Made by a program: the position numbers and the translations under genes. Under the pieces are notes generated by a model. That model had not been told where the DNA came from and ran no database searches. It saw only the letters and a program-made list of their open reading frames with translations. Positions 7,750 to 44,868 of a DNA stretch of 64,000 nucleotides are shown piece after piece (position 1 is the first letter of the stretch; each line of letters begins with the position of its first letter). This stretch comes from Malus domestica (taxonomy: Eukaryota; Streptophyta; Magnoliopsida; Rosales; Rosaceae): the NCBI RefSeq assembly GCF_042453785.1, contig NC_091675.1:9436501-9500500 (forward strand), written 5' to 3'.

Positions 7750-9787
7750 GAGAGAGAATTTGAGGAGAGGGGGAATTTAGGGTTTTGGGAATTGGGTTTT
7801 TTTGCTAGGGTTTTGAGGATTATTGTAAATTGGGAAAGAGATTTTGATGCTACCGTAGCCACTAGGACCTTGGTTTTGGAAGGAGTAACACAAAAGATGG
7901 GGTGACAGTGGACGAAAACGACGGAGAGATATTGACCGTAGGATATGTAGCTAAAGATAAGATCTTGGATGTTAGATGTGATCCGAAGGCTATGGTTTGG
8001 CCGTCGTTGCTTTGATACGAAGGTGCTGTCGGGTTAAGTTTAACTTCATTGACTTTTTTGTGGGATTAATTACGGTTTTAGTCCCTGAAATTTAGGAAGA
8101 TTTTAATGTCGTGTTACTCGTGTAAGCCTTTAGACCGGCTCTGAAATTCCGTCAAAAGAATTGACGGAAGCTAAATTTAAAACACACTCCGCCAACAACA
8201 ATCAGTAGTTATTACCAGAATTTTTTTATTTTATTTATTCAATCCAAAATGTTAGAAAAAAATGATCTTATTTTTTAAGTAAAATTTAGAATTATTTTTG
8301 AACTTGCACTTGAGTTTAGAATTCAACCCTAAACTAAATTTCCGTCAATTAACGCCTCTTTATTTAACTAGGTTTTTACTATTCTTCCTTCTAGATGATG
8401 TAAGTCGGTTTTTCTTTCTAAAATAATCAAGTGCCATGCATATGAGGTATTTTTTTAGGAAAAAGGATCCTCGTCGGATTCACGATCGTTTTTCTGGGGT
8501 TATAAGGATTCCGTAATCATGACCGTTCATCTTACATCGTGCGGTCAGAAATCATTTCAAAATTTAAAATTTAAAATTAAATATAAATAGTAACTAACAA
8601 AAAGTGATCGCACGATGTACGATGAACGGTCACGATCACGGAATCCCTACTATCCCAGGAAAAGCATGCAAGCTATGGTTTAATAAAGGTCTCTGTAAAA
8701 CGTACAAATTGCAGCAAGGTGAAGAAGCATGCAAGCTTAACATAATCGCATTTTAAAATTTCATCCTTTCGATCCTAAACACTCACAGACCCCATTAGAG
8801 AGGAATCATTCACCCTAAGATATTACAAAATCAGAAAAATTAACCAAATAAAGATCCTCCGACGTCGGACGAGATAGAAGCAGCAAGAACGGCAGCCGAT
8901 TAGCGGGAGCAGAAGCAGAAGGTGTAAAGAGAGGGAGGGGCGGAGGTTCTGGAACGAAAATCGAGGCCATGGACGATGGTTTTGGGTCTATACAGTCGAG
9001 TCACCGCTGGTGGAGTTGGAAAATTGTTTTGATTTTCAGTTGCGGCCTGCAATATATATTTCTTTACAGTCTGTTACTACAGTTTTGTTTTTGGTATTAG
9101 GTTTTGTGACTGTTAACTACCGTCTTCTACTAACAGCTTCGGTCCTCTACTGTAAGTGCCCGTGTTGTTGTGCTAGCCAGACTTGTCATCAGAGTTTAAT
9201 TCTCCTCCGTATTCTGGCAGCTTCAGCAGCAAGCAGATCGAGTAATTATCATCTCAGCTGTGTTGCTGGTGTGGTGAAACTCCTTAGTTACCAAGAAATT
9301 TGTGGAGGCCGGTGGAATGATAGATAGATAGAAAGACAGATATACGGCCAGATCAGTTCTTCCTTTACCTCCAGTGCATGAACTATAATATGTCCATGTC
9401 TTTCTTGGGTTTCAAGGCTAAATAAAGCACTGTCTTTTTATCGACAAAAAGCAGTTCGACTCTCCGGCAGCCTTCTAATTTCTCCATAAACCCTGTTTGT
9501 TTTAAGTTGCTTCAACTTCATCTGGCAAACATGTTCTTCAGATACCCATGTTTGATACCCTTCCATAAATTAAAAAGTAATATGGTCTATATATATAAAA
9601 TATCAAAACCAACCGAAATATGATCTAATTCGAATGAGGGTGAACTGAGTCATTGTAGCAAAGCAAAGAAAGTCTGAGACAATTACTACTCTGGGCATAT
9701 TGGACTAGCCCCAGAAATAAAAAGTTCCAGAGTACTATAGAAATGGCCAAAAGAAAAGAAAAATAAATCCAAGTCGGCAAGTCCCAA
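7750..9787. other. Intergenic region with MITE and no convincing gene
   Basis: This spacer separates the acidic-protein gene, which reads leftwards from 7710, from the 3' end of the TOPLESS-related gene. It holds a foldback MITE (8473-8660). On the minus strand a 51-codon ORF (8815-8970, opening MASIFVPEPPPLPLF) and on the plus strand short ORFs around 8969-9327 are present. None shows a recognisable domain, and no splice-linked continuation is obvious. Confidence 0.4.
8473..8660. mobile_element. Foldback MITE, family 1, first copy
   Basis: The two ends can pair over about 58 bp: on the left GGATTCCGTAATCATGACCG then TTCATCTTACATCGTGCG, on the right the complement CGCACGATGTACGATGAACG then GTCACGATCACGGAATCC. 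The centre is AT-rich. A related copy lies at 23640-23830. I could not define the target duplication. Confidence 0.65.
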
Positions 9788-12700
9788 CTAGGCCTTTTCA
9801 GAAGGGAGAAGTTGCCTTCCAATCCCCAAGCTTCCTTCAGTTGCAGTAGTATGGAGGCCGTTGTGGACATGTGGTGGCATACCCCATTTGTCCTCTGATT
9901 CGAGTGGCTCGATTATAACAACTGTTCCATCTGTTAGTCCGATGGCAAACTGGTTTGGCTCTTGGGGATGTGCAGCTATAACTAGAGGATGAGATGCGGA
10001 ACTGCTGCCGAAAAAATATAGAAAAGAAGTTAGTCAATCATGACCGTAACTGTTTGTTAAACTTGGTGTAGGAATAGAAATACAAATTATCAATCGAGAT
10101 GTAGCAAGGGAAAGTTAATCACCTGACATCAGGTGGGAGATAAGCATTGGGGTTAATCTGGCATTGGAGTTGAAGATTTGATGTAAACACGCGCACGGTT
10201 CCATCCATAAAGCTTGCATACACGAGCTGGCTATCACAAGAGAATGTTGCGTGCGAGATTGGTGCTGCAGGTTCTTCTACAATCCACTGAAACATGAAAC
10301 AGAAAACATGTAATAGTTTGAAGGAAAAAACATGTAAACTGGTGTACTTTATCATAACTGTTTCTACATTGTTTCGGCTAGTTAGAGCTAAGTGATTCAC
10401 TGGATAATGTGCGTGCCGCAATAAAAGTACCTGCTTTTCACATTCAAGTTTCAACGAGTCATATAAGGCAAGTTGACTCTCGTGGATTACAAGGATGTGC
10501 ATCAGATCCTTGTGATACTGAAGCTGAGCTTCAACCATTGCTGTAGGAGTCCTTCCAGCCAGAATTCGCAAGAAACAACTGTTCCCCCTTTCCCACTTAT
10601 CAGAGTTCCACACAATAAGCTGGGGAAAGAAAATACAAAAATTATGTTACCCAAACCAAACAAAAATCTTTTTTGTGTAGAATTATTCATAACGACCATA
10701 CTTGTTCTGACATTTTCGATATCTAAGCCATGGTAGGAAAGTGTACATTTTCCAATTCTCTCTTTTCATTAAACTGAAAATCACATCGAGATGCCTACAT
10801 GAGGATGAATTACTAACCTGAGCATCTGCTCCAAGAGAAACAAGTGTATGCTGAACATAGGAGAAGGCAAGACACGTGACTCTTTTTGAGTGACCATTAA
10901 GCTTGATCTTAACCTAACACCAGGAACAAAGTGAGCACCGAGATATATATGTAATTATGTATATAGTAAACATGAATGCAGTAATTCGTGCACTGGGCTT
11001 TACAAAACCACATACCTCATTTATGCGGACATTGTATATGTGAATGGTGGAATCATCCATGCCAACAGCAATTACATTATTGTCATCAGGGTGGAAAGCA
11101 AGACTTGTTGCCACAGGGGGTGGAGACATGAAAGTTGTCATCGTCTGTAGTTAAAGAAATAAACTCGTCACTGATCAAGAGCCCCAACCAATTTCGGGAA
11201 GATAAAATTTCGTGTTTCATGAGATAATATGTGTAAAAGCAGCTGAACCACAACCAAATTATGTTGAGATATAAAAACTTGCCTTGAATGTCATCATGTT
11301 GAACAAAGATACCTTCCCTCCAGAGGTTGACATGACATACGAATCATTCTTAGACAAAGCAAAGCAAGGTAGTGCACAATCAGGTTTAGCACCAGTAAGA
11401 TCATTCGTCATTAGAATGCCTGAAGGTTGTTGAATGAACTGCGGGGTAACCTTGGTCGTTGCCTAGCGACATAAAATTGCATGTAGCCATAATCCTCGCT
11501 TTAGAATACAGGAAGGATACAATCATCAAATTTGAACTATATGTAACAGAATCTAAGAAGATACAGAGTTTATACCTTTGCTCGCAAACTATGGTCATCC
11601 CGTGACCACCTCCAAAGGTGATGGATGGCACTGGATCCCAATGCTAGAATGGCATTACCTGAATAAGTGTATGTCAACCTTGAAATCTGTAACGATGACA
11701 AGAGAAGACAATCAGGAACTTTCTTTTTCTTTACTAGAAAATCAGTGATTAAAAAAGAAAACAAAAGCAGTGTAGTTGTCAAATCACAAGTGCATAGTCA
11801 ATGAGATACCAGAATATCACAGTGAACTACTGCCTAGTTATCGGCAAAATGCATGGGCAATAATTGAGAGTATCTGATGCTAAATGATATACAGTTAAGA
11901 CATCCAACCTTGTCTGTTTTCATTATAGACGAGAGCCTCAAGGTCCGAAGCTGAGAAGTTTCAGTAATCTGAGTGAGTTTCCAGATCCTTGTGTTTGTTT
12001 CTTCAGCTAATCTAGTTGGTTTCACCTCCTCCATGTTTCTGGTGCTACCACTCTGTCAAAACATGCTCGATTTATTGTAGACTAGAACTAAATAGTCAGA
12101 TTACTGAAATTGAAAATTCAGAATTTTAAACGATGAAGCAAAAACGTTGCGCATGACCGCGTGGTACAAAATTGCACAAGGAAAACATGATGCAACCAGC
12201 ATCATTAAATACAGTTGCAATCCTTGAAAGTTTGCACCTTGCACAGAGCTTATCGAAAGAGGTAAAGATTCTTCTATTCATGGCATTAATAGAAATTTTG
12301 ATAAGCTGACCTTTTTTGCAGTCTCAGATCCATTTCTTGTAGCAATAGTCGAGTGATTTTCAATAGTGCGCATCAGCTGAAGACCATCCATTGTAGCTAA
12401 AATTTTGACTTTACAGTCGTTTGCAGAAACAGCCAGTAAAGAGCCCTCCTTGTTGAAGCGAATGCAAGGACTAGCCTTCAAAAGGAAAATGTTCACGTTT
12501 TAGTACAGCCATAACTTCGTCAGAATATAATTCCTGCTCGTTATTCATAGTTTTAAAGGAAACTTACTGGTAGACCACCTTCAGCATCAATAGTAGTCAA
12601 AATATTGATTTTATCCATATCCCAAACTTTGATTGCATAGTCATCGCCAACAGCTAAATACTTATTCTTGCTTGTATCAAACTGAACAACACCCATAGAT

Positions 12701-15700
12701 GGTTTTTGAAATCCTACGTAGTTCCTCCTTATTACACCGTCATTTTCATTCCATTCAACAACATGAGATTCTCCATCTTTGCTTGTCCCGCATGAAAAGA
12801 GCCTGCATTGCGTTTAATGTAAAGATTGAATTTTCTTGTTGCCCAGAATATAGATGTAGGTCGCAATAACATTAGAAGGGAGTGGTATACCAACCTTTTA
12901 CCATCTGCACTATAGGCCATTGTTGTGATTGAGTGACCAGGAGCATCGTAATCCACCCGGTATCCCATATTGTCGTATAGCCATGCTTTTATTTTTCCAT
13001 TTACTGATGTTGAAAAGAAAAACTGAAACACAAGGGCATAAGCTGAATTTCAAAACAGAGTAAATCATTCATAGAAGGCAAATGAAGAGAGACAAATCAA
13101 GGGATTAAAAAAATGATAAGGCAAAGTCCTTACATGGACATTTTCCTTGTTATGAGGGCACACAGAATGCACGGCAGCATCATGACCTTCGAAAGTATAC
13201 AACTTTGACCCAGTAGTTGCATTCCACACCTATAAAACACAAATCGATGTATAAGTTTATCGTGTTTTCCACGACCTATTATATCACCACTTCTTCAAAA
13301 CCAACCTTAATGGCCTTATCATCACCGCAAGTTATGGCACAAAGTTGCTTAGCCGGGTTGCAGAATGCCAAATCATTAACACTACCAGCATGAGCATCGA
13401 TCTAGAAATTGATAAAAGTATTAGAAAAGAGAACAGCAAAATGAAATATACTGAAAAGGTAGAAGATGCAGAACCTACCTCCAAATGCTGGTGAATCTCA
13501 TTCCCACCAAAATAAGCGTATAATTGGATAATGTGTTTAGAATATGCAACTCCTGTTTGAAAGAACAATTGCACTTAAAGTTTTCTAGAAAAAACTACCG
13601 TGGATCGTATTCAAGCTTACCAAATCGAGAACTTACCAAATAGAGTACCATCAGGGCTCCATAATATACGCTTTACTGAGACGCATGGATCCTTGATCAG
13701 AGTTGCCTGAGTGTCATTAGAATCAAATAGGTTAAGATGATTCCAGTGACATAAAATGTAAATGTCATCTGTATGACTCGGTTGATAAGGGAACATACCT
13801 TCAGCATCATTGAACTCGCTCCGATATCCCATACCTGAAAACTTCTCGACAGCAATTTCTCCCTAGAACTAACTTCCCACAAACTTATGTCCCCCGTGTT
13901 AGTTCCAACTGGTACAAAAAAAAAAAAAAAAAAAAAAAAAGCCCCTTGTCAACTTGTTGCTGCTTAAACAAATACCTATAATCTAAGAAGTAGTATTTCT
14001 TCTCTTTTGATTGAAAAAGTAATCGTCCATCATTAAAGGAAACCTCAGAGAAACCAACCCAGAAGTAGTGTATGCTGAACAGGATGGAAGTCCATGCTTG
14101 TGGGAACTGACCCCAGATTCAAGGTCCGAGCAACAGTCTTTGGGAAATCTGCTGCGTTGAACGCACTGCTACTTTGTCCTAGATTGATCCCTTGCATCAT
14201 ACCCTACAGAGTGTATAAATAAGTATGGTCCAAATTCAAATTCTGTGCTCATGTAGACGGACTTTAAGCTTACCCTTTCTGGATCCCCAGTAAATTGCGT
14301 TTTGAACAAATCATCAGAATCCCCAGGACCCCTCACCGATGAAGCTAGACCAGGCAATAGAATTTTAACAGAAATGACAATGCAAGCTTATTCATTCTCT
14401 AAGCCCTGGGGAAAATTACATAGAAATAAAAGAAAGACTACCTGGATTTGTTAGACTACCAAAACCATTACCTCCTCCCGAAGCTGCTGGATGGTTTTGG
14501 GGAATAGATATCCATGTGGATAGAGGAGGTTGAACTGGAGCTAGCGGCTGTTGGAAGGGCTGATAGGTGAAATTCAAGTGATCGTAAAAATAACATAACG
14601 GTCAGAAAAAATCCTTCACTCCAAAGCAAAATTATAAATCAAGTAGTCTGAGGACAGTACCCCATTTGCACTCATAGGAAGAATACCATCAGCTTTTGGT
14701 GCAGAACCCGTCAGCTGACTGTTTGCGGTTAATTGAGCAAATGAATCATTGGAATTCTTACAAGAATGGTCCACAAATAGGGTGTTTATATCAGGATTCA
14801 GTCTAGGATTTGAACAAAGGGAATGCTGCCAATTCAAGCTGCCATATTCATTCCAAAATCAGTTCATTTGCAATATAAAGGTGACTGGTAAAAGATCGAA
14901 AACATCAAACTGGAATAGAACCTTTTTCTTTTTTCTGGCCGTACACAAACCAAATTTCATAAAAAAAATCACAGGAAAAACAATCCCCTAACATGAAGGA
15001 AACACAAATTCTCTTATTTTTCTTATGGCATATTACTGTTGTACCTTTGGTTAATGAGCATCCGCAACCTTGAATGTCTTAACTGAGGGAACTGTGTTTT
15101 GTCACGGAAAATAGGATTGGCCTCGATGAGCTTCTTAAGTTCCATGACCATAATGGCTCTCGCAGTTTTTGTATCTCTGTAACTCGCGAGCTGAGCATTT
15201 TCCCTGCATAACCCCAATCAATTTCATAATGCCAGTTGAGAGAATCATACTACAACCAACTCGAAGCTCGCAAAATTTGTGCATAACACTTACCTGAAAT
15301 TGTTTAATGTGAGGAGCTGAGTGATTTCCTTGAACAATTCTTCATTAAAACCCGCGAACATCTTCAGATCCTTCACTAGGATATCCACTGCTGTGGCTTT
15401 ATCTTGCCTGATGAATTCCAAATGATTAAACCAGATACAATGTCATAACAAATCCAAAACAAAAACAAACAATGCATCTGTTTATAAACAAAGTGCAAAT
15501 CTTGACAAATCAAATGCTTACTTATCCAATGCCTCGAGATACTTCTGTTTACGAATTTCAAAGAAGATCTTCATTGAGTATCGGTTGTCATCTATTTTCG
15601 TGAACCCCAAGAGATACCGCTCGACCTCATCCCACTTCCCTTCGAGCACCAATTCCTCAAAATACTTCATATCGAAGTACAATCCAGATTCTTGCTCAAG

Positions 15701-15886
15701 TCTGTTATCAAAATAAAAAATTTAAAAAAAAATTTAGAGAAAAGCATGAGCTGCAAAAACATGTACAAATATAAAGACACGGTAATTCGGGTCAGAAAAT
15801 TACTTATGACGAGCTTGTTGAAACTTTTCCTCATCAAGTAACTGCATGATCAATAAGATGAGGTCCTTACTGAGAGAGGACGTCAT
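9788..15886 (-). CDS. TOPLESS-related transcriptional corepressor
   Basis: About 24 coding exons run leftwards from ATG at 15886 to TAG at 9788, for a protein of roughly 1,090 residues, the usual size of TOPLESS/TPR proteins. The first four exons are 15804-15886, 15522-15701, 15294-15407 and 15045-15203. They encode the LisH (MTSSLSKDLILLIMQLLDEE), CTLH (GFTKIDDNRYSMKIFFEIRK) and CRA regions, ending ANPIFRDKTQFPQLRHSRL. Next comes LNWQH with NPDINTLFVDHSC, then a proline/serine linker, then two WD40 propellers (for example SMDFHP, LWEVSSREKLLSRSFQVWD, SKDGESHVVEWNENDGV, IKVWDMDK, FHPDDNNVIAVGMDDSTIHIYN, GTVVIIEPLESEDKW). Family knowledge: it binds EAR motifs (LxLxL) of repressors such as Aux/IAA proteins and recruits histone deacetylases in the nucleus. 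It looks closest to the divergent TPR2/TPR4-like group, so I give no symbol. An A-run of about 22 (13918-13940) lies in an intron. Confidence 0.93.
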
Positions 15887-18572: not shown

Positions 18573-20160
18573 TATCTCATTAATCCCGCCAACTTTTTAA
18601 CCCACCATAATTTTTTCTGTTTAGTTATGCCCTGTGTAAAGCGGGAGCCTTATGCACTGGGTACGACAGTTATGCCCTGTGTACTAATGAATAATCAATT
18701 ATAAAAAGGAATGTAAAAAACTCAAGAATTCTTGCCGTTCCTGTTCCCTATCCAATTTCTTCTTCTTTTCTCCTCATGTTCATGTTTTTCAACTACTAAT
18801 TTCAGAAATTAGTATCAAAAAAGAAATTTGCAGAAAACTTGAAGAAGAAGAAAAATACTGAAAACTAATAAGTAAAACATTCACAACGAATATATAGTAA
18901 CTAAAAACAAAAAAGGTAATTTTCTTTTATGGAATTTTATTGGGGAAAAGGTGAGTAGCATAATAAGTGAAAATTCACCACAAAACAAGTAAAAATTCAA
19001 TCATTGGTGTGTTATGACATTCAAAAATATATATAAGGCTTGTTTCATAAACATGTTTGGGAACTCATTTAGTACCTATTGTGAGTATTTAGTTTTTTAA
19101 AATGAAAATAACAAAATGAGAATTTTTTTGACAGTTAGAATATGAGTTTTCAATATTAAAAATAAATAGATGAAAACAAAATAAATATTAGATAAAAATT
19201 GATAAAAACACATAATAAATGAATAATACTTGTATTCCCTTCTTGAGGAATAAGCTCATTCCCATTGCAAATAACGTATCATAACCACATAGATGTTATA
19301 ATCAGAACCTTCAATTTCTTAATCTTTATTTGAAGATCAATGTTGCAAAAAATGATTCGAATTGGAGATTGTTTAATCATTCAAATGTATCAAATAAATC
19401 AACGATGTAGGTATCAGGTAACATATTAATGAGAAACTGTCCATTTTATTATATCCAATTGGTTGACTAAACAATCTTTGTTTTGAATGACTTTCTGTAA
19501 GGATGATCTTCAAATGAGGACTAAAAAACTAAACGGTTTTGATTATGAAATTTTGATTGTTAATGCACAAAACCAAGTTGACTTTGGAATATCGTAAAGT
19601 GTTAATATGTGACCTTTGTTAGGTTGCTTCAGTCACTTAGTGAGGGTAGCATGTATAGAGATAAGAGATAAGGGAAGTAAACGCAAGAGGTACACGGTTC
19701 ACCTATGTTGGGCTATGTCCACATGATGGAGGAGTTCCCATTAATAACGTAAAGTTTATGTACATGATACAAGGGTTTAGATATAATCATCACTTAATGA
19801 GTTCTAATAATAGATTAAGTAGAATAATATCATTAGGGATCAATTGTGGGAAAGTGATCTTCTTTTATACTCAAGGAGAGTCCCATGTTTTGTTTGCAGT
19901 CGATGTGGGACTCTAGAAGTTTTATTTTGATGTTGAAGTACAGTGTACCACCCCTCGTCGGTTGGAGCTGTCACGCGCCGTTTTGGAGCCGACACACGCC
20001 ATTAGTACATTTCGTCAAGTTGATAAAATATTAGTTAAATCTAGCGAAAAGGAAAACAGCGTTAATTGATGCCTTTAGAATATTCAGTTAAGTCTAACAA
20101 GAAACTGCGAGGTTTTTCCAAATTTTCAATGTGGGATTCACATACAACCAAGTGCTAGAT
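18573..20160. other. Gene-free spacer with retroelement-like tracts
   Basis: No exon recognised. About 19620-20000 has phrases common in plant LTR-type repeats (a GTTCACCTATGTTGGGCTATG stretch, then a 20-kb-side segment with AGTCGATGTGGGACTC), so it may be an old solo LTR. Ends cannot be defined. Confidence 0.35.
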
Positions 20161-23900: not shown

Positions 23901-24816
23901 ATATTTAGGGCAGATTAAACATTTAATCAATTGGTTATACTAGAAGAGTGCATGAGATGATTGTGAGAACCATAAACTTTTGCCATTTACACATCTGGAG
24001 AGCGTGTTTCACAGACCCCCTCCTGAGTCTGGTGGTCAATAGCCCACAGAGTGCTCAACGAAAATGACCACATAATCCCTGCTACATGTAACCCAAACAA
24101 ACGTATGTTCGCCAATGGTCATGATACCACTCTCCCCTCGCCCTCTCCTATAAATTCAGGCCTCTGCCAAGCCATTTCATGCAGATGCAGTGAATGATAA
24201 TTCGAGCTTAAGAGTAAATTGAGGCAGGCATCAAGCTCAGAGAGTTTAAGAAGTGAGAACCATTTCTCTTCTCTCTTTTTTTTATTTAGAAATGTTTGCT
24301 CTATTTGATGTAGAAAATTAATTATGAGTTTTCTTTCTTAATTACCTTTCCTAATACGATGTATGTCTAGATCTGAACCGTATCCATCATATCTATCTAC
24401 ATTAGTTATTGAATTCATTCTCTTTCCTAAAAGTTAAATTTTTTTTACATGTTTTTAGGATACCAAATCCTACTGGTTTTAATTCAACAGGTGGTTGGTA
24501 AGCTAAACTCTTGTTGTGAATATAGTATAAAGCGCTTCGATACTAGAGAGTAAATTCACACAAATCTTATTTGTTTTAGTTTAATTCTAGGCTTCTAGCT
24601 TCTCTTAAAAAAAAAAAAAAAACTATTGTAGGCTTCTAGCTAGCTTGCAATGCAGATGTTATGGTATATTGTTTGGTGGATGTGATCATTTTACATGCAT
24701 TTTTTGGTTGTCGGTGATTTGATTTTGAATTCTTTTTTGGTGTGGATGACATTATTTACTAACCTTTCACTTATTTTGACATTTAGGAACCAAATCAGAG
24801 CTACTGTATTGACGAC

Positions 24817-26091
24817 ATGGCTGCTATTTCACAAAGAGATGTGATTTACTCCATTCTACAATATCTTGATTTCAACAATTTTGGACAAACAGCTCGAACG
24901 TGAGTTTCTTTCCCATATTAATTTTCTCTCAAGACAAATGCCAAGAACAACTATTGTCTATGCGCGCGAGATGATTGTTAGCCATTTACGTACTTGAGAT
25001 CCCTAGTATAAATCTCACACATAATAATGGCTAGCAACCATCAACGCTTGCGTAGATGTTTGTCACCATTTATGTCTTGGGGTTGAGATTCTTTTACTGG
25101 TCTTTCCTTTTTATTTATGATCATAATAACTACATTATTCTTTATGCATGTAGACTTGAGGGGGAATCCGGCTTGTTCTTCAGCTTGCCATATTTTGAAG
25201 AATGTTTCATTCATGGAGAGTTTGACGAGGCAGAAGAGTACTTCAACGGCTTCACCACAGTGCATGACAACATCTATTCAACGAAGGTCATTTTTGAGCT
25301 TCGTTGGCACAAGTTTTTGGAGGCACTGGACGAGTAATTAACTAAAACCCTATATTTAAAGGAATTAACGAAATATTAGTTCTTTTTAGCAATGTTAATT
25401 ATATTTACTTATAACTTTGTACACATGCAGGAATAACTATGAGGAAGCAAATGAACTTCTCCATGAAGAACTCACAACCTTCCTACCGTACAATCAAAAC
25501 CTGATTGCACAGGCGACCGAGATTATGAACTTACACGACGTTAGGTAAGGAAAACGACGACTTTTGTTATTTTGTATAATCTTAATCGAGCATTTAATGA
25601 GAGATATTAGTTTCACAATGTAAAATTTTGTTTTATTAGAGAGTGATATTTTGAGATGGTACAAATATATATATTTTTTTTAAATGAACAATTTCGATCG
25701 TTGTGATTGCACACACACTAAAGTAGTTACTGCTTTATATGACTGATTTTTTTTATTTTTCATATATCGCGCTTTGCTTCCTGCATGTAGAATCTACCTA
25801 CGACTTCAGGGCTATGGAGACCTCATAGAAGCAAGAACTGCGGCGATGATAGATATAAGGAGATGTTTGGAGGCGAATCCACTGCTGGTTGGGAAAATTC
25901 GATATCGAATTCCCAACCACTACAGTAGCGGCGGCCTTGCCAATCTAGCACTCCCTCCCCCACCCGCAATTCTGCTAATTCGACGAGCATCTATAGCAGC
26001 GTTACAACCTCCAACAACTCCGTTGCTTGTACAAGTCCATTTCAGGCTTATTCCAGGCTTCGGATATTGGGTCGTAATTATATGTAATTAG
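24817..26091 (+). CDS. Mini-TOPLESS: TOPLESS N-terminal domain without WD40 repeats
   Basis: Four exons (24817-24899, 25154-25333, 25431-25544, 25791-26091) give 225 residues. Order: LisH-like start (MAAISQRDVIYSILQYLDF, residues 1-20), CTLH (LEGESGLFFSLPYFEECF; GFTTVHDNIYSTKVIFELR, about 29-87), CRA-like part (about 88-165, ending LEANPLLVGKIRYR). It then has its own tail of about 57 residues (NHYSSGGLANLALPPPP onwards), ending in TAG. Exons 1-3 are 83, 180 and 114 bases, exactly as in the full-length TPR gene at 15.3-15.9 kb, with the same phase-2 introns, so it descends from a TOPLESS-type gene. Compared with Arabidopsis TPL as I recall it, positions matching K71, F74, L111 and L130 of the EAR-binding surface are kept, while those matching R67 and K78 are Ile and Trp. 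The linker and both WD40 propellers are absent. It could join TOPLESS tetramers or bind repressors without recruiting partners; that is inference. All splice sites are GT-AG and the frame is intact. Confidence 0.8.
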
Positions 26092-26960
26092 GAGGCTGCA
26101 GGACATTGTTTGATGTGATGGTGTTTTGCTAATTAGTGTACATTGAACATAAATGTATCTTCTATCAATTAATTCAATTTATAGAAATGGGAGCGATTAT
26201 TTATTAATTTGAATCGGTTGTGCAATACAGTATTGGGCTAAGCTAGAGGATTAAGAGTATGAGTTTGTTAAGAGTTTACATAGTCTATGCAAAATGTCCA
26301 AAATAAAAAGATATGAATACAGCACGTTAAATTTTACTCTTGACAATTGAGAATAACAGTAAAATTATTTGTCAAGAAGGCAGAATAACGTCATAAACCG
26401 CGTGAATAATAACTCCAACTTTTATATTATTTCTCTATTTAACCTTTAGTGCGAAGCTGGTGAAATTTGGAAATTTGGAAATTTTGAAAATTAAAACTTC
26501 TATTTTTTTTGTATTATTTGGTTTATGTGTCTATAAACGATTGAGAGAAAATTAAAATGTATGTGTTCATTTAAATAAAAAGTTAAAGATTTTTTTTATT
26601 AAAAAGTGAAAAGAAACTTAGAAAATTGAAAGCACATCTTGGTTGTAGCGATGAGAAGAGTAAACTGAAGTAGAAAGCAACACAGAATTCCTCTTAGAGA
26701 GATTTTTCAGTGTAATCGGTATATCAGGTGATACATTATGTGTCATTATACAAATAGTAAGATAGGTGTGCTAAAAAGTTAATAACTTAAAAAATAAAAT
26801 TTTCAACCAATCATATTAAAACACGTGATATAACACTTGTGTTCGTACCACAACTAAAAATTTATCTTCCTCCGGAACCTCGGCATGGCAAACAAGCGTG
26901 TACGTTTCTTTCAGCCACCTCTCCAGTCGCACCAACCGCGACCCACCACTTTGGACAGTA
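26092..26960. other. Spacer after the mini-TOPLESS gene
   Basis: Probable 3' flank of the mini-TOPLESS gene, AT-rich. A minus-strand open frame from 27040 to 26816 (74 codons, GTG-initiated, containing KYSTDVSFIQATVQSGG) has a protein-like look, but it lacks an ATG and its counterpart in the duplicated segment at 31.5 kb is broken, so I do not call it a gene. Confidence 0.35.
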
Positions 26961-27587: not shown

Positions 27588-28616
27588 GGCTAAATAGCCA
27601 AAATGGTCTCTGAGATTTGCATAACTCATCACTTTGGTCCCTAACATTTCAAATCGATAAAAATGGTCCCTGAGATTGTCCACCATCCATCAATTTGTCC
27701 TTCCGTTAAAAACTTTGTTTAAGTGTCCCGGAGCTCTTGATCAGAAGTTTGGGCAATTTTCAAAGCTTCGTAACTCAATCGTTTCTTAACCAAATTCGAC
27801 CCATAATATATCAAAATGAAGATAGGAAAGTGTAGAATAAGATTATACCTATTTGGAAGCCCAATGGCTGCCGAAGATGGCCGGAAAATAGCCTCAAAGT
27901 TGACTGGTCAGAGGAAAAACTGGAAAACTCGCCGGAAACTAGGTAAACTTTAAACGTTCATAACTTCTTCAATACTCAAGAAAATCTAGTGATTCAAAAA
28001 TGAAAATCATACTTCTCAACGAGACGAAGAGAATGGTATCTTTTTAGATGGCTAACTAGCGGTGGTTTGGCCAGAAAATGGCTCGAAAGTGGCTAACTCG
28101 AGACCAGGACAGCCACTTTCGAGCCGTTTTCCGGCCAAACCACGGTGATTTAGCCACCTAAAAAGGTACCATTCTCTTCTTCGGATTGATAAGTATGATT
28201 TTAGTTTTTGAATCACTTGATTTCGTTGAGTATTGAAGAAGTTATGAACGTTTAAAGTTTACCCAGTTTCCAGTGAGTTTTCCAGTTTTCCTTCGGACCA
28301 GTCAACTTTGAGGCTATTTTCCAGCTATCTCCGGCAACCACTGGGCTTTCAAATGGGATAATCTTATTCTACACTTTCCTATCTTCATTTTGATATATTA
28401 TGGGTCAAATTTGGTTAAGAAACAATTGAGTTACGAAGCTTTGAAAATTGCCCAAACTTCAGTCCACGAGCTCCTAGACACTTAACGGAGTTTTTCACGG
28501 AATGACCAAAATGATGGATGGTGGATAATCTTAAGGACCACTTTTATTGATTTGAAATGTTAGAGACCAAAGTGATGAGTTATACAAATCTCATAGACCA
28601 TTTTGGCTATTTAGCC
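27588..28616. mobile_element. 1,029-bp foldback Mutator-like MITE
   Basis: The ends are GGCTAAATAGCCAAAATGGT and its complement, and the two halves are complementary over several hundred bases (for example ATAACTCATCACTTTGGTCC left, GGACCACTTTTATTGATTTG and ACCAAAGTGATGAGTTAT right), so the whole element can fold on itself. It is flanked by the 9-base duplication TAAATTGAG (27579-27587 and 28617-28625). Segmental unit B has the single uninterrupted TAAATTGAG at 32090-32098, a true empty site. Nine-base duplications are diagnostic of Mutator-like elements. No coding content seen. Confidence 0.88.
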
Positions 28617-29980
28617 TAAATTGAGACACACGAAAATGAGCAAGTAAGGGATAAAGTGAGATTTTGTATAAAGTGCAAGTATCATAGTTAAAAATAAGTC
28701 TTTCTTGATTATAATGCTACGTCAAAAAAATGGTGTTCACAATTATTTCATTTCATTTTGTCGTTCATATATTATATAATATTGGTTGAAAAATAGAGAA
28801 GTGATAAATACACAATATTTTTCTTTTACACACTCATGTTTAATCTTATCTAATATTTTCGTTTGATTTATTTAATTTGAAAGTTAAAAATAAAGAGGTG
28901 TGTAAGAGATAAAAATGATATGTGAAAATCAGTTGTGTGGCTATGCTATAACTTTATTAATTAATTAACACATGACTATTTGTCAAATATTTTTGAAGTT
29001 TAAAAGTTATTTTTGACAAAGTTCAAGTTATGCCATTATTTTTTTTAATTAATAAGCAGAGAATCCACTGCTACAACATATTCCAATACAGTCATATAAG
29101 AAAACATTTAAAACAAAAATAGATAAAGTTCTATCCTTAGTATGTGTATTTGGAATGTTAAGTCCAACGCTTGTGATGGCATCAGCTAAGAATTTATATC
29201 CCTAAAAATATGCTTTCATAAGAAATATATTAAAAAGAATCCGCTAGCCAATAAATAAGAAATTTTCCTTAAGAAAGTTGCTATTTTATGTAGAAATTAT
29301 GAGTGTTCTTTCGTAATTAGTTTTCCAAATATAACGCATGTCTAGATCTACACCGTATTCATTATATTTAATTATATAAGATATCGAATTCATACTCTTT
29401 CCTAAAAACTGGATTTTTTTTATTTTTGTAGAGGATTTACCGAATCCTATTGATTTTAATTCAAGGGGTTGTTGGTGAGTCGAACTTTTGCTGTGAATGT
29501 GGTATAAAACCTTTTGCCACTAGAGCATAAGCTTTCACTACTCCTATTTGTTTGATTTTAATTATAGGCATCTAGCTAGCTCGCATGTAGATATTATGGT
29601 ACATTTTAGTGGATGATATTGTACGTGTTTTGCTTGTGGATGATATGATTTATTTTTTTTTTTGTTGATGATATTATCTTTCATTTAAGATCTACTTAAA
29701 CAGTGTGTAAACTGTTATTCTCCTGGTGTTATTCTTTTGATGATATTATCTTTTTAGTGAATGATATTATTGTATATGTTTGGTTGTGGATGATATGATA
29801 TTTTTTTTTAGATGATATTATCTTTCATTTAAGATCTACCTAAATAGTGTGTAAACTGTTATTTTTCTGGTGTTATATCCTGATTTTTTACTCCTTTTGA
29901 CACTTAGGAACCAAAGCATAACTACTATATGTTATGGTCAAGGTATTGTAGAATGGAGTAAATAATATAGTAGCTACAAT

Positions 29981-30912
29981 ATGGCTGCTATTTCACAAGG
30001 ACATGCGATTTACTCCATTCTACAATACTTTGACCTCAACAGTTGTGGAAAAACAGCTCGCGTGTGAGTTTTATTTTGGGAATTTTATCGAAAAGTTCCT
30101 GGTACTGTTCACTTTAAAGAAAAATCATATTTTTACAAAAAGTTAATCCTAATACTATTCACTTTACCCTTTATTTTGTCCTTATAGTTAAAACTCCAAG
30201 TTTTCAAATCATTTTCATTAGTTTTCCTTTTTAATTTTTAATTTAATTTCACATAAAGCCAAATGCAACATACAATAATCATCATAGTTTATCAATTTTT
30301 GTGAGATTACAATCATTGGTTAACAAAAAGTAACGCTTTTTTTAACCGCATTAATTATTTATATGAGTAGCCTGGAGCGAGAATCTGGTTCAGCTTGCCG
30401 TATTTGGAAGAATATTTCATTCGTGGAGATTTCTATAATGCAGAAGAATACTTGAAGGGCTTCACCACAGTGCTTGACAACATCTACTCAACGAACGTCA
30501 TTTTTGAGCTATGTTGGGGATCAAGATCCCCTCATAAGCGGATGGAGAGGATCCTCTTGACCAGGCCCATCAGGTTATTCAATTTTTATCTAACGATTAT
30601 AATTATTATAACTTTTAAAAGGACCCCATGTTTGTAGCCGTTGGATAAAAATTGAACAGCCCGATGGGCTTGGTTAGGAGGATCCTTTCCATCTGCTCAT
30701 GAGAGGATTCTGATCCCTATGTTGGCACGACTTTCTGGAGGCAGGCACTGGAAGAGTAATTAACTAAAACATTTACATTTGGTGAAATTAATGAATTATT
30801 AGTCCTTTTTTAGAAATATTAATTTGACAAGCACCTCTAGCACCTCCGCTGCGCAGACAAGTTGTATTTCAGGCTTTTTGAACATTGGTTCATAGTCATG
30901 CGTAATCAGTAG
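29981..30912 (+). pseudogene. Decayed mini-TOPLESS copy 2
   Basis: Exon 1 (29981-30063, 83 bases) is intact and encodes MAAISQGHAIYSILQYFDLN. Exon 2 starts after TAG at about 30370 but has a 7-base deletion just after the GAATCTGG word relative to the intact gene, which shifts the frame. It is then interrupted by a 200-bp MITE (30518-30717) and resumes to the donor at 30755. Exon 3 and most of exon 4 are gone; a trace of exon 4 (a TTTCAGGCTTTTTGAACATT word) remains at about 30880-30912. The 7-base deletion is shared with copy 3, so it predates the segmental duplication. Confidence 0.85.
30518..30717. mobile_element. 200-bp hAT-like MITE inside mini-TOPLESS copy 2
   Basis: It is flanked by the 8-base duplication TATGTTGG (30510-30517 and 30718-30725), while copy 3 has the single site. 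The terminal inverted repeats are imperfect (GGATCAAGATCCCCTCATAA against the complement of CATGAGAGGATTCTGATCCC) and contain inner GGATCC sites. The core TAACGATTATAATTATTATA is shared with the elements at 56.1 and 62.3 kb. Confidence 0.85.
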
Positions 30913-31494
30913 GTACGACGTTGTTTCTCACTATCCCACTCTCTTGGTGTAGATAATATCGTTTGTTCAAAAAAATAATAATAAATGAGTTAGTCGTTTC
31001 CCACTTCCCAAATGAAAGCATGAGTTATTTGTTGTGGAAGAACTATTTTCACTTCCTACCGAATGGCAAGGTAGGAAAGAAACCTATATACAAATCTCTC
31101 GATGTCACTCAGTAATAGGGTTTAGCTTCAAATCTTGTGGATGACGAGTTCTTAACTAATTTATGCGATACCTCTCTTTGAAAAGGAACGGTTGGGGCAA
31201 TGTTGTAGTGAGCCATATTAGAGGTTCAGTGTTATGTGTTAGTGTTACATGTCAAATTTAACTGACGACAATTCAGAGCAACCGTAAAAATTATCATAGG
31301 TGAATAATAACACTTTTATTTGTTAATTTTCTATTTAACCCCTTGCCAGAAGATGGAGTGATTTGGAAAGCTCAAAATTTTTTGAAAGAGTTTAAAATTT
31401 TAAGGGCATTTAATCAGAATTTTAAATGAATTCATGAAAGTTCAAGAATATTCAATTACAATTTTAAAAGAATTTATTAAAGAGTTTAAAAAAT

Positions 31495-34400
31495 GAGCTG
31501 ATATCTGTACTGTACTTATATAAGCCCGTGTTTCTATCAGTGTCGTTATCATACTCTCTTCCCACCTACTTGTTCGAGACTATTGTATAAGTTAACCAAC
31601 TTATTATTTCGTTCAAATTCACTATGCTTTATTATTAAACTTTAATCACATAAAGTGGTTGTTATTAGAACTACAATCTAGAGATATTTTTATTATAAAT
31701 GAAAGATTTTAAGTTAGATTCAGATAGGTGATAAGTTTGAAACCAAATTATTATGATATTCTGTAGCTTAATTCAAATCTCTTAGGTGATGCGAGAGGGA
31801 TAATATTTTGTAGACCACATGATGTGGCAGTTAATAGTTGAACTTCTTCTTTAAATCATTAAAAACAAAAAAAATCGTTCAATCATCAACCGTCATATCA
31901 TACAGTCTACAAAAAATGGTCTAACCATCAAGCCTATGAGGATTGATCTCCAAATCCGATTGGAATTTACAGGTGGTGGGGGCAATCAAATTTATTTTTA
32001 TTTTTTAATTATTAATTAGCAAATTTACTAAAATATTCATGTCACGTCAACAATTTAATGGTTTATGTAACCGAGTTAACATCATAGGATAAATTGAGAC
32101 ACACAAAAATGAGCAAGGGATAAAGTGAGATTTTGTATAAGGTGCAAGTATCATAGTTAAAAATAAGTCTTTCTTGATTATAATGCTACGTCAAAAAATG
32201 GTGTTAACAATTATTTCATTTCATTTTGTCGTTCATATATTATATAATATTGGTTAAAAAATAGAGAAGTGATAAATACACAATATTTTTCTTTTACACA
32301 CTCATGTTTAATCTTATCTATTATTTTATTTAATTTGAATGTCAGAAATAAAGAGGTGTGTAAGAAATAAAAATAATGTGTGAAAATCAATTGTGTGGCT
32401 ATGTTATAACTTTATTAATTAACACATGACTCTTCGTCAAATATTTTTGAAGTTTAAAAGTTATTTTTGACAAAGTTCAAGTTATGCCATTATTTTTGTA
32501 ATTAAGTAGAGAATCCACGGCTACAACATGTTCCAATACAGTCATATAAGAAAACATTTCAAACAACAACAGATAAAGTTCTATCCTTAGTATGCGTATT
32601 TGGAATGTAAGTCCAACGCTTGTGATGGCATCAGCTAAGAATTTATATCCCTAAAAATATGCTTTCATAAGAAATATATTAAAAAGAATCCGCTAGCCAA
32701 TAAATAAGAAATTTTCCTTAAGAAAGTTGCTATTTTATGTAGAAATTATGAGTGTTCTTTCGTAATTAGTTTTCCAAATATAATGCATGTCTAGATCTAC
32801 ACCGTATTCATTGTATTTAATTATATAAGATATCGAATTCATACTCTTTCCTAAAAACTGGATTTTTTTTATTTTTGTAGAGGATTTACCGAATCCTATT
32901 GGTTTTAATTAAAAGGGTTGTTGGTGAGTCGGACTTTTGCTGTGAATGTGGTATAAAACCTTTTGCCACTAGAGCATAAGCTTTCACTACTCCTATTTGT
33001 TTGTTTGTTTTTTTTTTTTGGAAGCCACTACTCCTATTTGTTTGATTTTAATTATAGGCATCTAGCTAGCTCGCATGTAGATATTATAGTACATTTTAGT
33101 GGATGATATTATTGTACGTGTTGGTTGTGGATGATATGATTTTTTTTTTTTTTTAGATGATATTATCTTTCATTTAAGATCTACTTAAACAGTGTGTAAA
33201 CTGTTATTCTCGTGTTATTCTTCTGATGATATTATCTTTTTAATGGATGATATTATTGTACATGTTTGGTTGTGGATGATATGATTAATTTTTTTAGATG
33301 ATATTATCTTTCAGTTAAGATCTACCTAAATAGTGTGTAAACTGTTATTTTTCTGGTGTTATATCCTAATTTTTGACTCCTTTTGACGTTTAGGAACCAA
33401 AGCATAAATACTATATGTTATGGTCAAGGTATTGTAGAATGGAGTAAATGATATAGTAGCTACAATATGGCTGCTATTTCACAAGAACATGCAATTTACT
33501 CCATTCTACAATACTTTGACCTCAACATTTATGGAAAAACAGCTCGCGTGTGAGTTTTATTTTGGGAACTTTAACGAAAAACTCTTGGTACTGTTCATTT
33601 TAACGAAAAACCACATTTTACAATAAAAAGTTAATCCTGGTACTATTCACTTTACCCTTTATTTTGTCCTTATCGTTAAAACTCCAAGTTTTAAGTCTTT
33701 TTCATTAGTTTTCCTTTTTATTTTTTAATTTAATTTCACATAAAGCCAAATGCAACATACAATAATCATCATAGTTTATCAATTTTTGTGAGATTACAAT
33801 CATTGGTTAACAAAAAGTAATGATTTTTTTAACTGCATTAATTATTTATATGAGTAGCCTGAAGCGAGAATCTGGTTCAGCTTGCCGTATTTGGAAGAAT
33901 GTTTCATTCGTGGAGAATACATGAAGGGCTTCACCACAGTGCTTGACAACATCTACTCGACGAACGTCATTTTTGAGCTATGTTGGCACGACTTCTGGAG
34001 GCAGGCACTGGAAGAGTAATTAACTAAAACATTTACATGTGGTGAAATTAATGAATTATTAGTCCCTTTTTAGAAATATTAATTGACATGCACCTCTAGC
34101 ACCTCCGCTGCGTAGACAAGTTGCATTTCAGGCTTTTTGAATATTGGTTCATAGTCATGCGTAATCAGTAGGTATGACGTTGTTTCTTACTATCTCACTC
34201 TCTTAATGTAGATAATATCGTTTGTTCAAGAAAAAAAAATGAGTTAGTCGTTTCCCACTTCCCAAATGAAAGTATGAGTTATTTGTTGTGGAAGAACTAT
34301 TTTCACTCCCTACCGAATGGCAAGGTAGGAAAGAAACCTATATACAAATCTCTCGATGTCACTCAGTAATAGGGTTTAGCTTCAAATCTTGTGAATGACA

Positions 34401-34735
34401 AGTTCTTAACTAATTTATGCGACAACTCTCTTTGAAAAAGAACGGTTGGGGCAATGTTGTAGTGAGCCATATTAGAGGTTCAACATTATGTGTTAGTGTT
34501 ACATGTCAAATTTAATTGACGACAATTAAGAGCAACCGTAAAAATTGTCAAGATGTGAATAATAACACATTTATTTGTTAATTTTCTATTAAACATTTTG
34601 CCTGAAGATGAAGTGATGTGGAAATCTTAAAAGATTTTAAAAAGTTTAAAATTTTAAGGGTATTCAGTCAAAATTTTAAATAAATTCATGTAAGTTCAAG
34701 AATATTCAATTAGAATTTTAAAAAAATTTATTAAA
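31495..34735 (+). repeat. Segmental duplication, unit B
   Basis: Second direct copy of the segment described for unit A, joined to it without intervening sequence. It lacks the two transposon insertions of unit A. It has small private changes such as an insertion of about 35 bases with a T-run near 33005-33040. Confidence 0.9.
33467..34166 (+). pseudogene. Decayed mini-TOPLESS copy 3
   Basis: Exon 1 (33467-33549) is open (MAAISQEHAIYSILQYFDLN). Exon 2 (from about 33859) carries the same 7-base deletion as copy 2, plus a private deletion of about 21 bases after TTCATTCGTGGAGA, and ends at the donor GAAGAGTAATT near 34017. Exon 3 is missing and only the last part of exon 4 is recognisable (34100-34166). 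It cannot make a TOPLESS domain, although exon 1 and the promoter region might still be transcribed. Confidence 0.85.
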
Positions 34736-35275
34736 GTACCCTAAAAATCTAAGTGTGAATTCACTCTAAATTCAGTCTCTATAAAAGTATATTAAAACAC
34801 TGTCAAACTCCTTAGATTTATTCGATAACTCTTTTAAAATTCATTAAAATCGCAACTAAATAACCCTCCAAAATGGAAGATCATTAATATAATAAGGATA
34901 ATATTAATTAAACAATAATTTAAAAAACTAAAAATTAAAGTCCCCTTGTTTTCTGCTCCTTTTTCCCTACTTTTCTGGCATTCGCTCTGCAAGCACTTTT
35001 TTTCCATAACTCACCTATATTTATTTGTGTCCTTTGAATTGAAAAACTTATCAAGGGCAGGGACATAAATAAACAGGGTTTGAGAAGGAGAAAAACCGTG
35101 GGCGAATATCGTTTCAATATGAAAAATACTTTGGCTCTTTATATCTAAGGATCATTTCTTTCCCTTTCTCAAAAAGGATCATTTCTTCCTAACCAATTAT
35201 GGTGTTTTCGCTACGTCATTTCAGTTATCTGTCAATTTGTGATTAGTTGGCAAGGATGAATCACTTCCTATCTGT
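34736..35275. other. Gene-free spacer
   Basis: AT-rich, no recognised exon or bordered repeat. Confidence 0.35.
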
Positions 35276-41538: not shown

Positions 41539-43795
41539 TCAAGCATGCTCCAAGATAGAATGAAGTTTTGGAACTTGCCGACGCAACAATGGCTCAAGCC
41601 GGAAAGAGGGAACGCCAAATTGCCACCTTTTAGCATCATACATTTCATTCCATGCCTGAATTATCTCATCAATTTTGAACCCTAAACCTGCATTTGAATG
41701 AAAATTGATCATATGTCTCAAATTCGAACAGCTCTAAATTCTAAAAGCCGTAAAAAATTTGCATTAACATGTGATACTTACCTTCCAGTGCAGTTTCATT
41801 GGAACAGTGGTTCTTTATCATCACGGCAATATCTGTTGGAGAAGCTCCACAAAGTTCAAACTTTTCAACAGAAACTTCTAAACATTCCTCCCAAGTAGGT
41901 AGCCCTAGCTTATATTCCACAACAGAACGCTCATACAGCAAGGTTCCCCACAAGAGGTATATCTGTGACTTCATATTTGCCGCATGCTCTGCAGCTTCAT
42001 CAGCAGATACCTCTTGAATTAGGCCATCCAAACCCAATTTCTGCAGTTGGGTGTTATATTTTTCTTCTTTGGACAGTCCATTTAGACGCCGCTCTTCCAT
42101 CTCCTCCCACATCAGCATGCCCCTGTCCATGCTGTCCTCAGCCTTGTTATAAAGCTTAAGCACCTCTGAAGAAGGCTCTGTTTCTAGCTCATTCTTGCTT
42201 CCAATAGCATAGTACCAACAAAGCTTTGCTTGGTCAAACTGTTGTTGCCCCAGAGCAAGATAACCTTCATAAAAGTCGGGTTTTATTTTCACAGCCTCTT
42301 CATACCTACCCTCTGCCTTCTTATACTCTTTCTTTGCCCAGTCATAGCCAGCCTTGATCAGTTCAGTAATGGTTTCCCTTGAAGCATTTTCAGGAAAGGA
42401 AACTCGCTTCCTTGCCCTAGACATGTGGACATTTCCCCAATTAAACAATGCCAAAGCCGCCATTTCTTGGAACTTATCTGCAGCAATGTCAAAAAGTTCT
42501 TGAGCATCCTCAAGTGTTACAGTGTCCTCCATTGCCTCGGAGTATAGCTTCACACCAAGCTCATGAAGATCCAAATACGAATCAGAATCGAACCCAACAT
42601 GGTTCTTGAACAATCGTGCAAACTGGATAACCCAGTCCTCAACAGAAGTAGACCTTTTTTCCACTATTCTATCGTTTTCAGTATCCCCATTCTCTACAAC
42701 ATTACTTGGTTTTTTGTCTTCCATACTCACCTCCCCATCACTCAATCCCTCGTAAATTGGTTCTTGATCAGGACTGACTTCTGATATGAATAATCTAAGT
42801 GAGCCCCGCATATCACAGGAAGATTCAACTATCCTCAACTCATCTGTGGTAGTGATTGTAACCAAATCACCCTCTTGATCTCTATACTTAACAAGAACAC
42901 CCTTCAAGCCAGGAAATCGATCCTTAACTATCTCCCTCGCCAACCCCATGCTACAATTCGCTGGCAGTTGTGCCCACCTTATATCCTCTCCAAACACCAG
43001 CTTCACTGGCCTTGCAACTACTTTTTCTTCCTCCACATGTTTTGTAACCAGTTTCTCTTCCTCAGCGTGCTTCGTAACCACTTTATCTTCCTCAACAGTC
43101 TTTGTAACCACTTCTTTATCCTTATCAGCACTCACCTTCTCTTCCACAACGACCTTATCCTCCATCTTCTGCTCAACTTTCTTACCCTTCTTCTTCTTTA
43201 ACTTCTCTTTCACCACCTTATGAAAACGAGCAGCAGCAGGCTTCTGTACATTAGCAATACCAATCTCTTTCTCATCATAAACAATACCCTTTTCATTCAT
43301 CACCCTCTTCACGCTCGCCAAAATCTCCAACGCACTTAGATTATTCGGTTCCATACTCAGCACAGCATTAACATCTCTCAATGCCAAATCCAACCTATTC
43401 AAAGCCTCATAACAATATGCTCTTTTTAACAGCGCTTTACTGTACTTTGGCGATACCTCTAACGCTAAATTACATTCGTTGATAGCTCGAGGATATTCCC
43501 CAATACCCATTTGTATATAGCATGCCGCCATGCTGCTATGCAGATGAGCAACTTCAAAATGATTCTGTGGAAGGAGTTTGAGGGCCTTTTCATACTTCAA
43601 CATCGCACCTTCATGATCGTGCTTCTGATAGAGCTTGTTACCTTCTTCTTTGAGTTCATAGGACATGTTGATGAAGATTGCAGTGTCTTCATCAAAGGCT
43701 TTCGAGTTTCGATCCGAGGACTTGCTGTGCTTACTGCCAGCATTCCCTGGCTTTTGAACCTCATGATCTTTCTTCTTCCCAATTGGCTTTCCCAT
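41539..43795 (-). CDS. PHOX-type TPR-PB1 co-chaperone, CLMP1-like
   Basis: Two exons, 41782-43795 and 41539-41687, joined by a GTAAGT-CAG intron, give 720 residues. Residues 1-40 are basic ([17 protein letters not shown]), about 45-155 hold three TPR repeats ([52 protein letters not shown]), 190-260 are a Lys/Glu/Val-rich linker, about 265-345 a PB1 domain ([31 protein letters not shown]), and 390-720 a C-terminal helical TPR-like part ending [10 protein letters not shown]. This order and the close match to Arabidopsis CLMP1/PHOX2 as I recall it make the assignment firm. In that plant the protein prevents chloroplast clumping and is thought to link Hsp90/Hsp70 to other partners. The linker contains a VTKHVEEEK-type repeat (about four units). 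A leader intron seems to end near 43806 with its donor at 44084. Confidence 0.93.
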
Positions 43796-44868
43796 TTGAT
43801 ATTCCTATAACAATTCACACACCCAAAAAACCAAGGAACATACAATAATCAATCAATTGTATCTGGTAAAACCCAATTCAAATTCATGCATGATGGTGAC
43901 CAAAAACAACTGAATCAAATTAACAGACACAAAAATAAAATTACCCAAAAATTGAAGCTAAAGTAATTTGTACACACAACTTTTCAATCAAAATTCCAGA
44001 AATTAAACACCGAGACCCCAAATTTTAATTCCAGAAATTAACCACAAAAAATAGAGAAAAAAAATTATCACTAACCTGGTAGCTGTTCTAAGAGCTCCGA
44101 ACCAGCAATTGGTGGATGCTAATCCAGATAGAAAGAAAAACCCAAATCAGAATTTGATTGAATTTTAATGACCGGGGTCTGGAATTGTTGGGAGAGAAAC
44201 AGAGAGTGGATATCGGTGGCTGCAGAAGAAAATGCAAATGGAACGACGCATCATTTCCTCCTGCAAAGGGAATTTCTATCTCCCTAGGGTTTCCCGAATC
44301 AAAGTCCACGTTCCAAACTGGCAAGGTCAACCTTCCAAAGTGGCATGGTCATTCCCACCGTTCAGGAGCGCGCGTGTCATTAACCGCCGTATTTCGCTTG
44401 CCCCGCCACCACTTGTGTTTTTGGTTTTTTCCGCACCATATTTATGAAAAACATTTTGTTTGTATATGTTAAACGCTACTATCGAGTATCGAACTCGAAA
44501 TTCATATCCCAAGCAACAAATAGAGAAACGATCCAATTTATTATTGCGTACACAACGTTAATAATTTTAGAAACAACCATTCTGGTGGTCAACGATCCAA
44601 GTACTCAAGTGATCGTTGTTTTAAACAACATCAAACTTCATTTACAGATCCAACAACATCAACCATTTTTACGTCATTTATGTATAAAGTCATTATTAAA
44701 TCAGTAAATTTAAGCAAGAAAATCGTGGAAATCCACATTCTTCTTTTTACTCCTATAACAATTTTCTAATATTATTGGTTTGCAGCATTGTTTTGATGGA
44801 CAGTGATACATGTTCAGTGGCATAGGCATGGATGAATCTTGACCATTGATGAATGCATAATCCACTAC

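Follow-up and report, generated by a model that had tools for sequence, protein, structure and literature searches.

A stand-alone TOPLESS N-domain gene with two decayed tandem copies in apple: a possible EAR-binding decoy or mini-repressor

Genes and features of the locus

We analyzed a stretch of 64,000 nucleotides of Malus domestica DNA (NCBI RefSeq assembly GCF_042453785.1, contig NC_091675.1, positions 9,436,501 to 9,500,500 of the forward strand), here referred to as the window, and positions are counted from its first letter. The window contains a full-length TOPLESS-related (TPR) gene, a short gene that encodes only the N-domain of a TOPLESS protein (mini-TOPLESS), and two broken copies of the short gene, which lie downstream of it on the same strand, start at 29981 and 33467, and were missing from the original prediction. 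The coordinates are collected in Table 1.

Table 1. Coordinates of the TOPLESS-related genes, decayed copies and foldbacks in the window.
Feature	Position	Strand	Description
Full-length TPR gene	9788–15886	-	24 coding exons, 1083 aa, intact
Putative leader of mini-TOPLESS	24149–24816	+	predicted from the sequence
Intact mini-TOPLESS gene	24817–26091	+	exons 24817–24899 (83), 25154–25333 (180), 25431–25544 (114), 25791–26091 (301 with stop)
Exon 1 stretch pairing with the 5′ arm of both hairpins	24844–24871	+	in the mini-TOPLESS gene
Tail of the mini-TOPLESS protein	25906–26091	+	61 codons and stop, after the helix-8 homology; unconstrained in the present frame
Foldback, copy 2	29936–30035	+	inverted exon 1 copy 5′ of the ATG pairs with exon 1; −52.3 kcal/mol
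Decayed copy 2	29981–30930	+	exon 1 29981–30063 with donor; exon 2 30371–30755; tail remnant within 30816–30930
MITE-like inverted-repeat element in exon 2 of copy 2	30518–30717	.	200 bp; 8-bp target duplication
Foldback, copy 3	33422–33521	+	inverted exon 1 copy 5′ of the ATG; −54.2 kcal/mol
Decayed copy 3	33467–34190	+	exon 1 33467–33549 with donor; exon 2 33858–34015; tail remnant within 34075–34190

Mini-TOPLESS is a structurally intact stand-alone TOPLESS N-domain gene. Its four exons are joined by three GT-AG introns into a coding sequence of 678 nt that is in frame for 225 residues and ends with a stop codon at 26089–26091. The results confirmed the original prediction of a four-exon gene with intact frame and splice sites, whose exons 1–3 have the same lengths as those of the full-length TPR gene (83, 180 and 114 nt in both). 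The three introns of mini-TOPLESS occupy the positions of TPR introns 1–3. Splicing and homology rule out chance and a wrong gene model, and the presence of three introns at the TPR positions rules out a retrocopy or processed pseudogene. Upstream of the ATG at 24817, the sequence suggests a putative leader composed of a TATA-like box at 24149, a 5′ UTR exon and a 5′ UTR intron (donor GT at 24253, acceptor AG ending at 24786). In the TPR gene, the intron after coding exon 19 is of the GC-AG type (11281–11282), and the other introns between its coding exons are GT-AG.

Domains of the mini-TOPLESS protein

The encoded protein has a LisH-CTLH-CRA arrangement which, by sequence comparison, reaches helix 8 of TOPLESS. 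When residues 6–165 were compared with the sequences of TPL/TPR N-domain crystal structures (PDB 5nqs, 4zhe, 5jhp), the five best matches had E-values of 8e-37 to 2e-35, and the alignment with 5nqs, a TOPLESS structure, was without gaps. The Pfam model of the TPL CTLH (PF21889) matched at E 1.8e-31, and the LisH_TPL model (PF17814) gave 22.5 bits, which is under its cut-off of 30.7 bits. Thus, the predicted LisH, CTLH and CRA-like parts were borne out by the structure matches and by PF21889, the TPL-type LisH preceding the CTLH/CRA being below the cut-off of its own model. In TOPLESS, EAR motifs are bound by the CTLH region.

The homology stops with helix 8, and no helix-9 homology was found in mini-TOPLESS. 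The linker and the WD40 propellers of TPL/TPR corepressors are also absent, as had been claimed from the sequence: a search of the window outside the TPR gene with TPR residues 179–1083 gave no match at E ≤ 1, which rules out that the WD40 half lies elsewhere in the window. A cruder search compared 78 open segments taken from around the gene with 16001–64000; apart from N-domain exons, which it recovered in all three copies, it gave a single weak match at 52.2–52.4 kb (E 0.03). Like microProteins, mini-TOPLESS has the interaction domain of a larger protein and lacks the remaining parts.

The protein was also correctly described as strongly diverged from TPR. Over residues 6–88, it is identical to Arabidopsis TPL at 41 of 83 positions, to a second TPR in PDB at 43 and to the window TPR at 41 (about 50%), and the window TPR and TPL share 62 of the 83. 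Descent from the neighboring TPR gene, as read from the exon lengths, is unsupported, since Arabidopsis TPL and the second PDB TPR are equally close (41–43 of 83).

We mapped published functional residues of TPL by alignment. The LisH-dimer residues S5/L8/F15/E19 read Q/V/Y/N in mini-TOPLESS and the CRA-tetramer residues K102/T116/Q117/E122 read T/T/E/H, so that seven of the eight multimerization residues differ and T116 alone is identical. The window TPR, which served as a control, reads S/L/L/E and K/T/Q/N, and retains six of the eight (F15 and E122 differ). The MED21-contact residues V145/E146/K148/K149 of helix 8 read I/D/R/R in mini-TOPLESS and M/E/K/K in the window TPR. These comparisons suggest that the tetramer-joining interfaces are more eroded in mini-TOPLESS than in the window TPR, and that the helix-8 contact surface has been conservatively replaced. 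Among the eight positions that we take to form the EAR groove (R67, K71, F74, K78, F104, L111, L130 and L150), five are kept (K71, F74, F104, L111 and L130), and R67, K78 and L150 read I, W and C.

Decayed tandem copies

Both downstream copies have kept exon 1 with its donor and a remnant of the tail, and have lost all of exon 3 and the greater part of exon 4. A 7-nt deletion in exon 2 is common to them and shifts the frame. Exon 2 of copy 3 carries an additional 18-nt deletion, and the element inserted in exon 2 of copy 2 is flanked by the target duplication TATGTTGG at 30510–30517 and 30718–30725. The two copies match each other over long segments (28617–30517 versus 32090–33986, 91%; 30717–31482 versus 33978–34736, 92%) and are, on sequence comparison, the products of a later tandem duplication.

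Homology of the copies to the upstream region of mini-TOPLESS was detected from 24301 onward, and because it begins there, the copies seem to be without the putative TATA box and leader exon. At the other end, the intact gene and copy 2 have a common flank downstream of the tail (26402–26485 versus 31300–31381). Since the copies hold a tail remnant and this shared flank, the short form probably predates its split from the copies, and the WD40 part would have been absent by then.

Two other observations concern the sequence around the copies. The segment 26971–27587, 3′ of the intact gene, shares 87% identity with the segment 31496–32098, 3′ of copy 2, as compared with about 72% for the 5′ introns of the genes. 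This suggests that the duplication had another boundary or that sequence was exchanged at a later time. Each decayed copy also contains, on its 5′ side (29590–29876; 33080–33362), two tandem units of a direct repeat about 140 bp long, and the second unit was not seen in the mini-TOPLESS gene when the sequences were aligned.

Tests of selection on exons 1–2 and on the tail

A comparison of mini-TOPLESS with the window TPR is unusable for dN/dS, as the synonymous sites are saturated. We therefore calculated dN/dS over exons 1–2 only, between mini-TOPLESS and copies 2 and 3, which share one history. The results showed a dN of 0.128, a dS of 0.319 and an omega of 0.40 against copy 2 (bootstrap 0.19–0.91, 75 codons), and a dN of 0.128, a dS of 0.360 and an omega of 0.35 against copy 3 (bootstrap 0.15–0.76, 68 codons). 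The omega between copies 2 and 3 was 0.80, and exon 1 alone gave 0.74 and 0.59. The differences were distributed over the three codon positions as 9/6/18 against copy 2 (chi-square p 0.029) and as 9/6/16 against copy 3, and nonsynonymous and synonymous changes differed with p 0.020 and 0.014 (uncorrected for several tests).

Per site, the coding sequence had diverged about half as much as the 5′ intron (33 of 225 versus 117 of 432 sites; Fisher p 0.0003, uncorrected for several tests). Low-complexity stretches may have made the alignment overstate the intron value, the best local match being 76% over 302 bases. The synonymous divergence (0.32 and 0.36) was close to that of the 5′ intron (117/432 and 134/471).

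To assign the replacements to branches, we used the window TPR, Arabidopsis TPL and the 4zhe TPR as references. Nine of the 21 differing residues remained unpolarized, 11 had changed on the decayed branch (three of these being visible in copy 2 only) and one on the intact branch (p 0.006). Under strict polarization, where all three references agree, the numbers were seven and one, respectively (p 0.07). Because the rate of replacement is lowered and the WD40 part was likely lost before the copies split, selection probably preserved the N-domain of the truncated protein during some of the period that followed the WD40 loss. Some of this constraint may have acted on the copies while they were still unbroken. 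Taken from sequence comparison, the evidence of past constraint on mini-TOPLESS is moderate.

The tail behaves differently. Together with the 3′ sequence, it differs from copy 2 at 29 of 109 sites (16 of the 109 belonging to the 3′ UTR), which equals the divergence of the intron (117 of 432; p 1.0). In its 93 coding sites, compared with copy 2 only, the differences fall mostly at codon position 1 (14/5/6, with 31 sites each), so the present frame of the tail looks recent. The private tail with a stop of the original prediction thus exists, and its role as a functional part is unsupported, the lack of constraint ruling against it. The +1 frame of the tail reads FPT, a motif that presumably follows helix 8 in known TPL proteins; these three residues only are a hint that the tail may have arisen by frameshift.

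It is quite possible that mini-TOPLESS is a relic on its way out, that is, a truncated duplicate that was once useful or only early constrained, and the last of three copies to be unbroken. Such a fate would agree with the breakage of two of the three copies in the window, with the intron-like divergence and seemingly recent frame of the tail, and with the absent helix-9 homology and eroded multimer residues. It is at odds with the intact frame and splice sites and with the polarized replacements, which favor the intact gene by 11 to 1, or by 7 to 1 when strictly counted.

Foldbacks in the decayed copies

In both decayed copies, the inverted copy of exon 1 forms with exon 1 a near-complete stem of the kind found in plant MIRNA foldbacks, the outer 28 bp consisting of 27 Watson–Crick pairs and one G:U pair in each. 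The 5′ arm also pairs with exon 1 of mini-TOPLESS through 25 Watson–Crick and three G:U pairs with zero mismatches. RNA folding over 141 nt gave −61.4 and −61.0 kcal/mol (z −10.2 and −10.1), with none of 200 shuffles being as good, and the corresponding 111 nt of the mini-TOPLESS gene had a z of −1.1. The window contains the 20-base core five times: each decayed copy has it in both sense and antisense orientation, and the intact exon 1 has it once. If up to three mismatches are allowed, 0.03 occurrences are expected by chance. On sequence grounds, the foldbacks are a candidate nascent small-RNA locus, and their anatomy is that which would be expected under the inverted-duplication model of MIRNA origin. 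As far as the excerpted text of the respective papers goes, MIRNA origin by inverted target duplication (PMC3237417) and the S-locus small-RNA precursors (PMC13128112) likewise involve an inverted, pseudogene-related copy of the target with a near-perfect stem. Unlike these, the foldback described here is present in two tandem decayed copies that adjoin the target.

The locus could accordingly matter mainly as RNA, with small RNAs from the foldbacks of the decayed copies silencing the intact gene or other copies, a reading that we regard as unlikely. Besides the strength of the stems, it is favored by the preference of the 5′ arm, whose 21-, 22- and 24-mers reach −28.5 to −35.8 kcal/mol when paired with exon 1 of mini-TOPLESS and pair only poorly with TPR exon 1 (−10.5 to −16.3 kcal/mol), and by the zero differences between copies 2 and 3 in the 56 stem bases. 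With a p of 0.076, however, this identity is insufficient as proof of selection, and a young neutral repeat fits it as well. Other points against this reading are that neither copy seems to have the putative leader and TATA box that lie 5′ of mini-TOPLESS, and that inverted repeats are not rare in the window, where nine pairs of at least 24 nt within 200 nt were found, two of them being these foldbacks. There was no match in Rfam at gathering cut-offs, six 16-base arm strings were in no paper's main text in the open-licence literature, and TOPLESS was absent from the available portion of the main text of an apple small-RNA paper (PMC3446319). If the foldbacks do make small RNAs, the locus would capture the birth of a regulatory RNA in the neighborhood of the gene that it targets.

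Possible function of mini-TOPLESS

The explanation that we tentatively prefer, at somewhat short of an even chance, is that mini-TOPLESS is a truncated, tandem-duplicated TOPLESS paralogue that was kept for some time under purifying selection and acts as an EAR-binding decoy or mini-repressor; we infer its expression, EAR binding and role. The small LisH-CTLH-CRA protein would work through its CTLH/CRA groove by binding EAR-motif repressors, which would either be held off full-length TOPLESS or repress weakly, without WD40, via helix 8. It would probably be a monomer or weak dimer and not a part of TOPLESS tetramers. TOPLESS is a corepressor common to auxin, jasmonate and other pathways, and an EAR-binding half that is naturally kept alone would be a built-in competitor, showing which half evolution can use alone. 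An extended version, which we consider improbable, treats the three copies as one array, where the decayed sisters would be foldback loci whose small RNAs match the intact exon 1 and control the corepressor decoy. If true, a small-RNA gene would have newly arisen adjacent to the gene that it targets, and would regulate a corepressor decoy.

Published data, as given in excerpts of the papers, are in line with a function as a decoy or mini-repressor. A yeast two-hybrid assay with pear proteins showed binding of the EAR protein PpERF9 by CTLH on its own (PMC10226596), and TPL residues 1–188 are enough to repress in yeast, multimerization being dispensable (PMC13251949, PMC8203292). The loss of helix 9, the unconstrained tail, the three changed positions of the EAR groove and the sharing of only about half of residues 6–88 with TPL argue against such a function.

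According to the original prediction, the product could sequester EAR repressors or, in the manner of a microprotein, poison or tune the tetramers of TOPLESS. Sequestration is plausible. Entry of the product into the tetramers appears less likely, indeed very doubtful: the LisH and CTLH parts are present and the TPL LisH domain is sufficient for dimerization (excerpt of PMC8203292), but all four LisH-dimer and three of the four CRA-tetramer residues differ, and the dominant tpl-1 change N176H sits in helix 9 (same excerpt), for which mini-TOPLESS has no homology. The residue argument is weakened by the little effect that F15Y alone has on repression (PMC8203292, in part) and by the differences of the full-length window TPR at F15 and E122. 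We favor the decoy or mini-repressor over tetramer poisoning because the multimer interfaces are eroded, the helix-8 surface is conservatively replaced and the pear CTLH binds an EAR protein.

Mini-TOPLESS can be compared with several known systems. With TPL/TPR proteins, it has in common the LisH-CTLH-CRA sequence, the lengths of exons 1–3 as in the window TPR and, in conservatively replaced form, the helix-8 MED21 contacts; it differs from them by the absence of helix-9 homology, linker and propellers, and by its divergence and changed multimer residues. MiP1a/b, microProteins linked to TOPLESS (PMC4807768), are another case; they are not known to be TPL-derived. The trans-microProteins, as partly described in PMC5381583, resemble mini-TOPLESS in that they are small and akin to a single portion of some larger protein, although its 225 residues exceed the 140-residue limit set for them by miPFinder. 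Truncated TPL sequences of tomato are likewise incomplete paralogues in a genome with full genes, but the three tomato sequences lack LisH and CTLH, which is the opposite half to that missing here (PMC3935560, in excerpt).

The available text of family surveys indicates that incomplete members were discarded in soybean (PMC13275459) and cotton (PMC12469280), and that only complete TPL members were counted in tomato (PMC3935560). Stand-alone N-domain genes can be overlooked for this reason. No paper on such genes was among the matches listed from the open-licence literature, which is no proof of absence, and a bacterial plasmid collection gave no match, as expected.

Other features of the window

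Between the intact gene and copy 2 lies a large, MITE-like inverted repeat (27848–28357), with arms of 247 nt that are 87% complementary and 16 nt apart. Further inverted repeats with arms of 59–89 nt, perhaps MITEs, were observed at 8489–8663, 19310–19533 and 56066–56264. A single open frame on the minus strand (41741–43804) encodes 687 residues with tetratricopeptide repeats and a PB1 domain.
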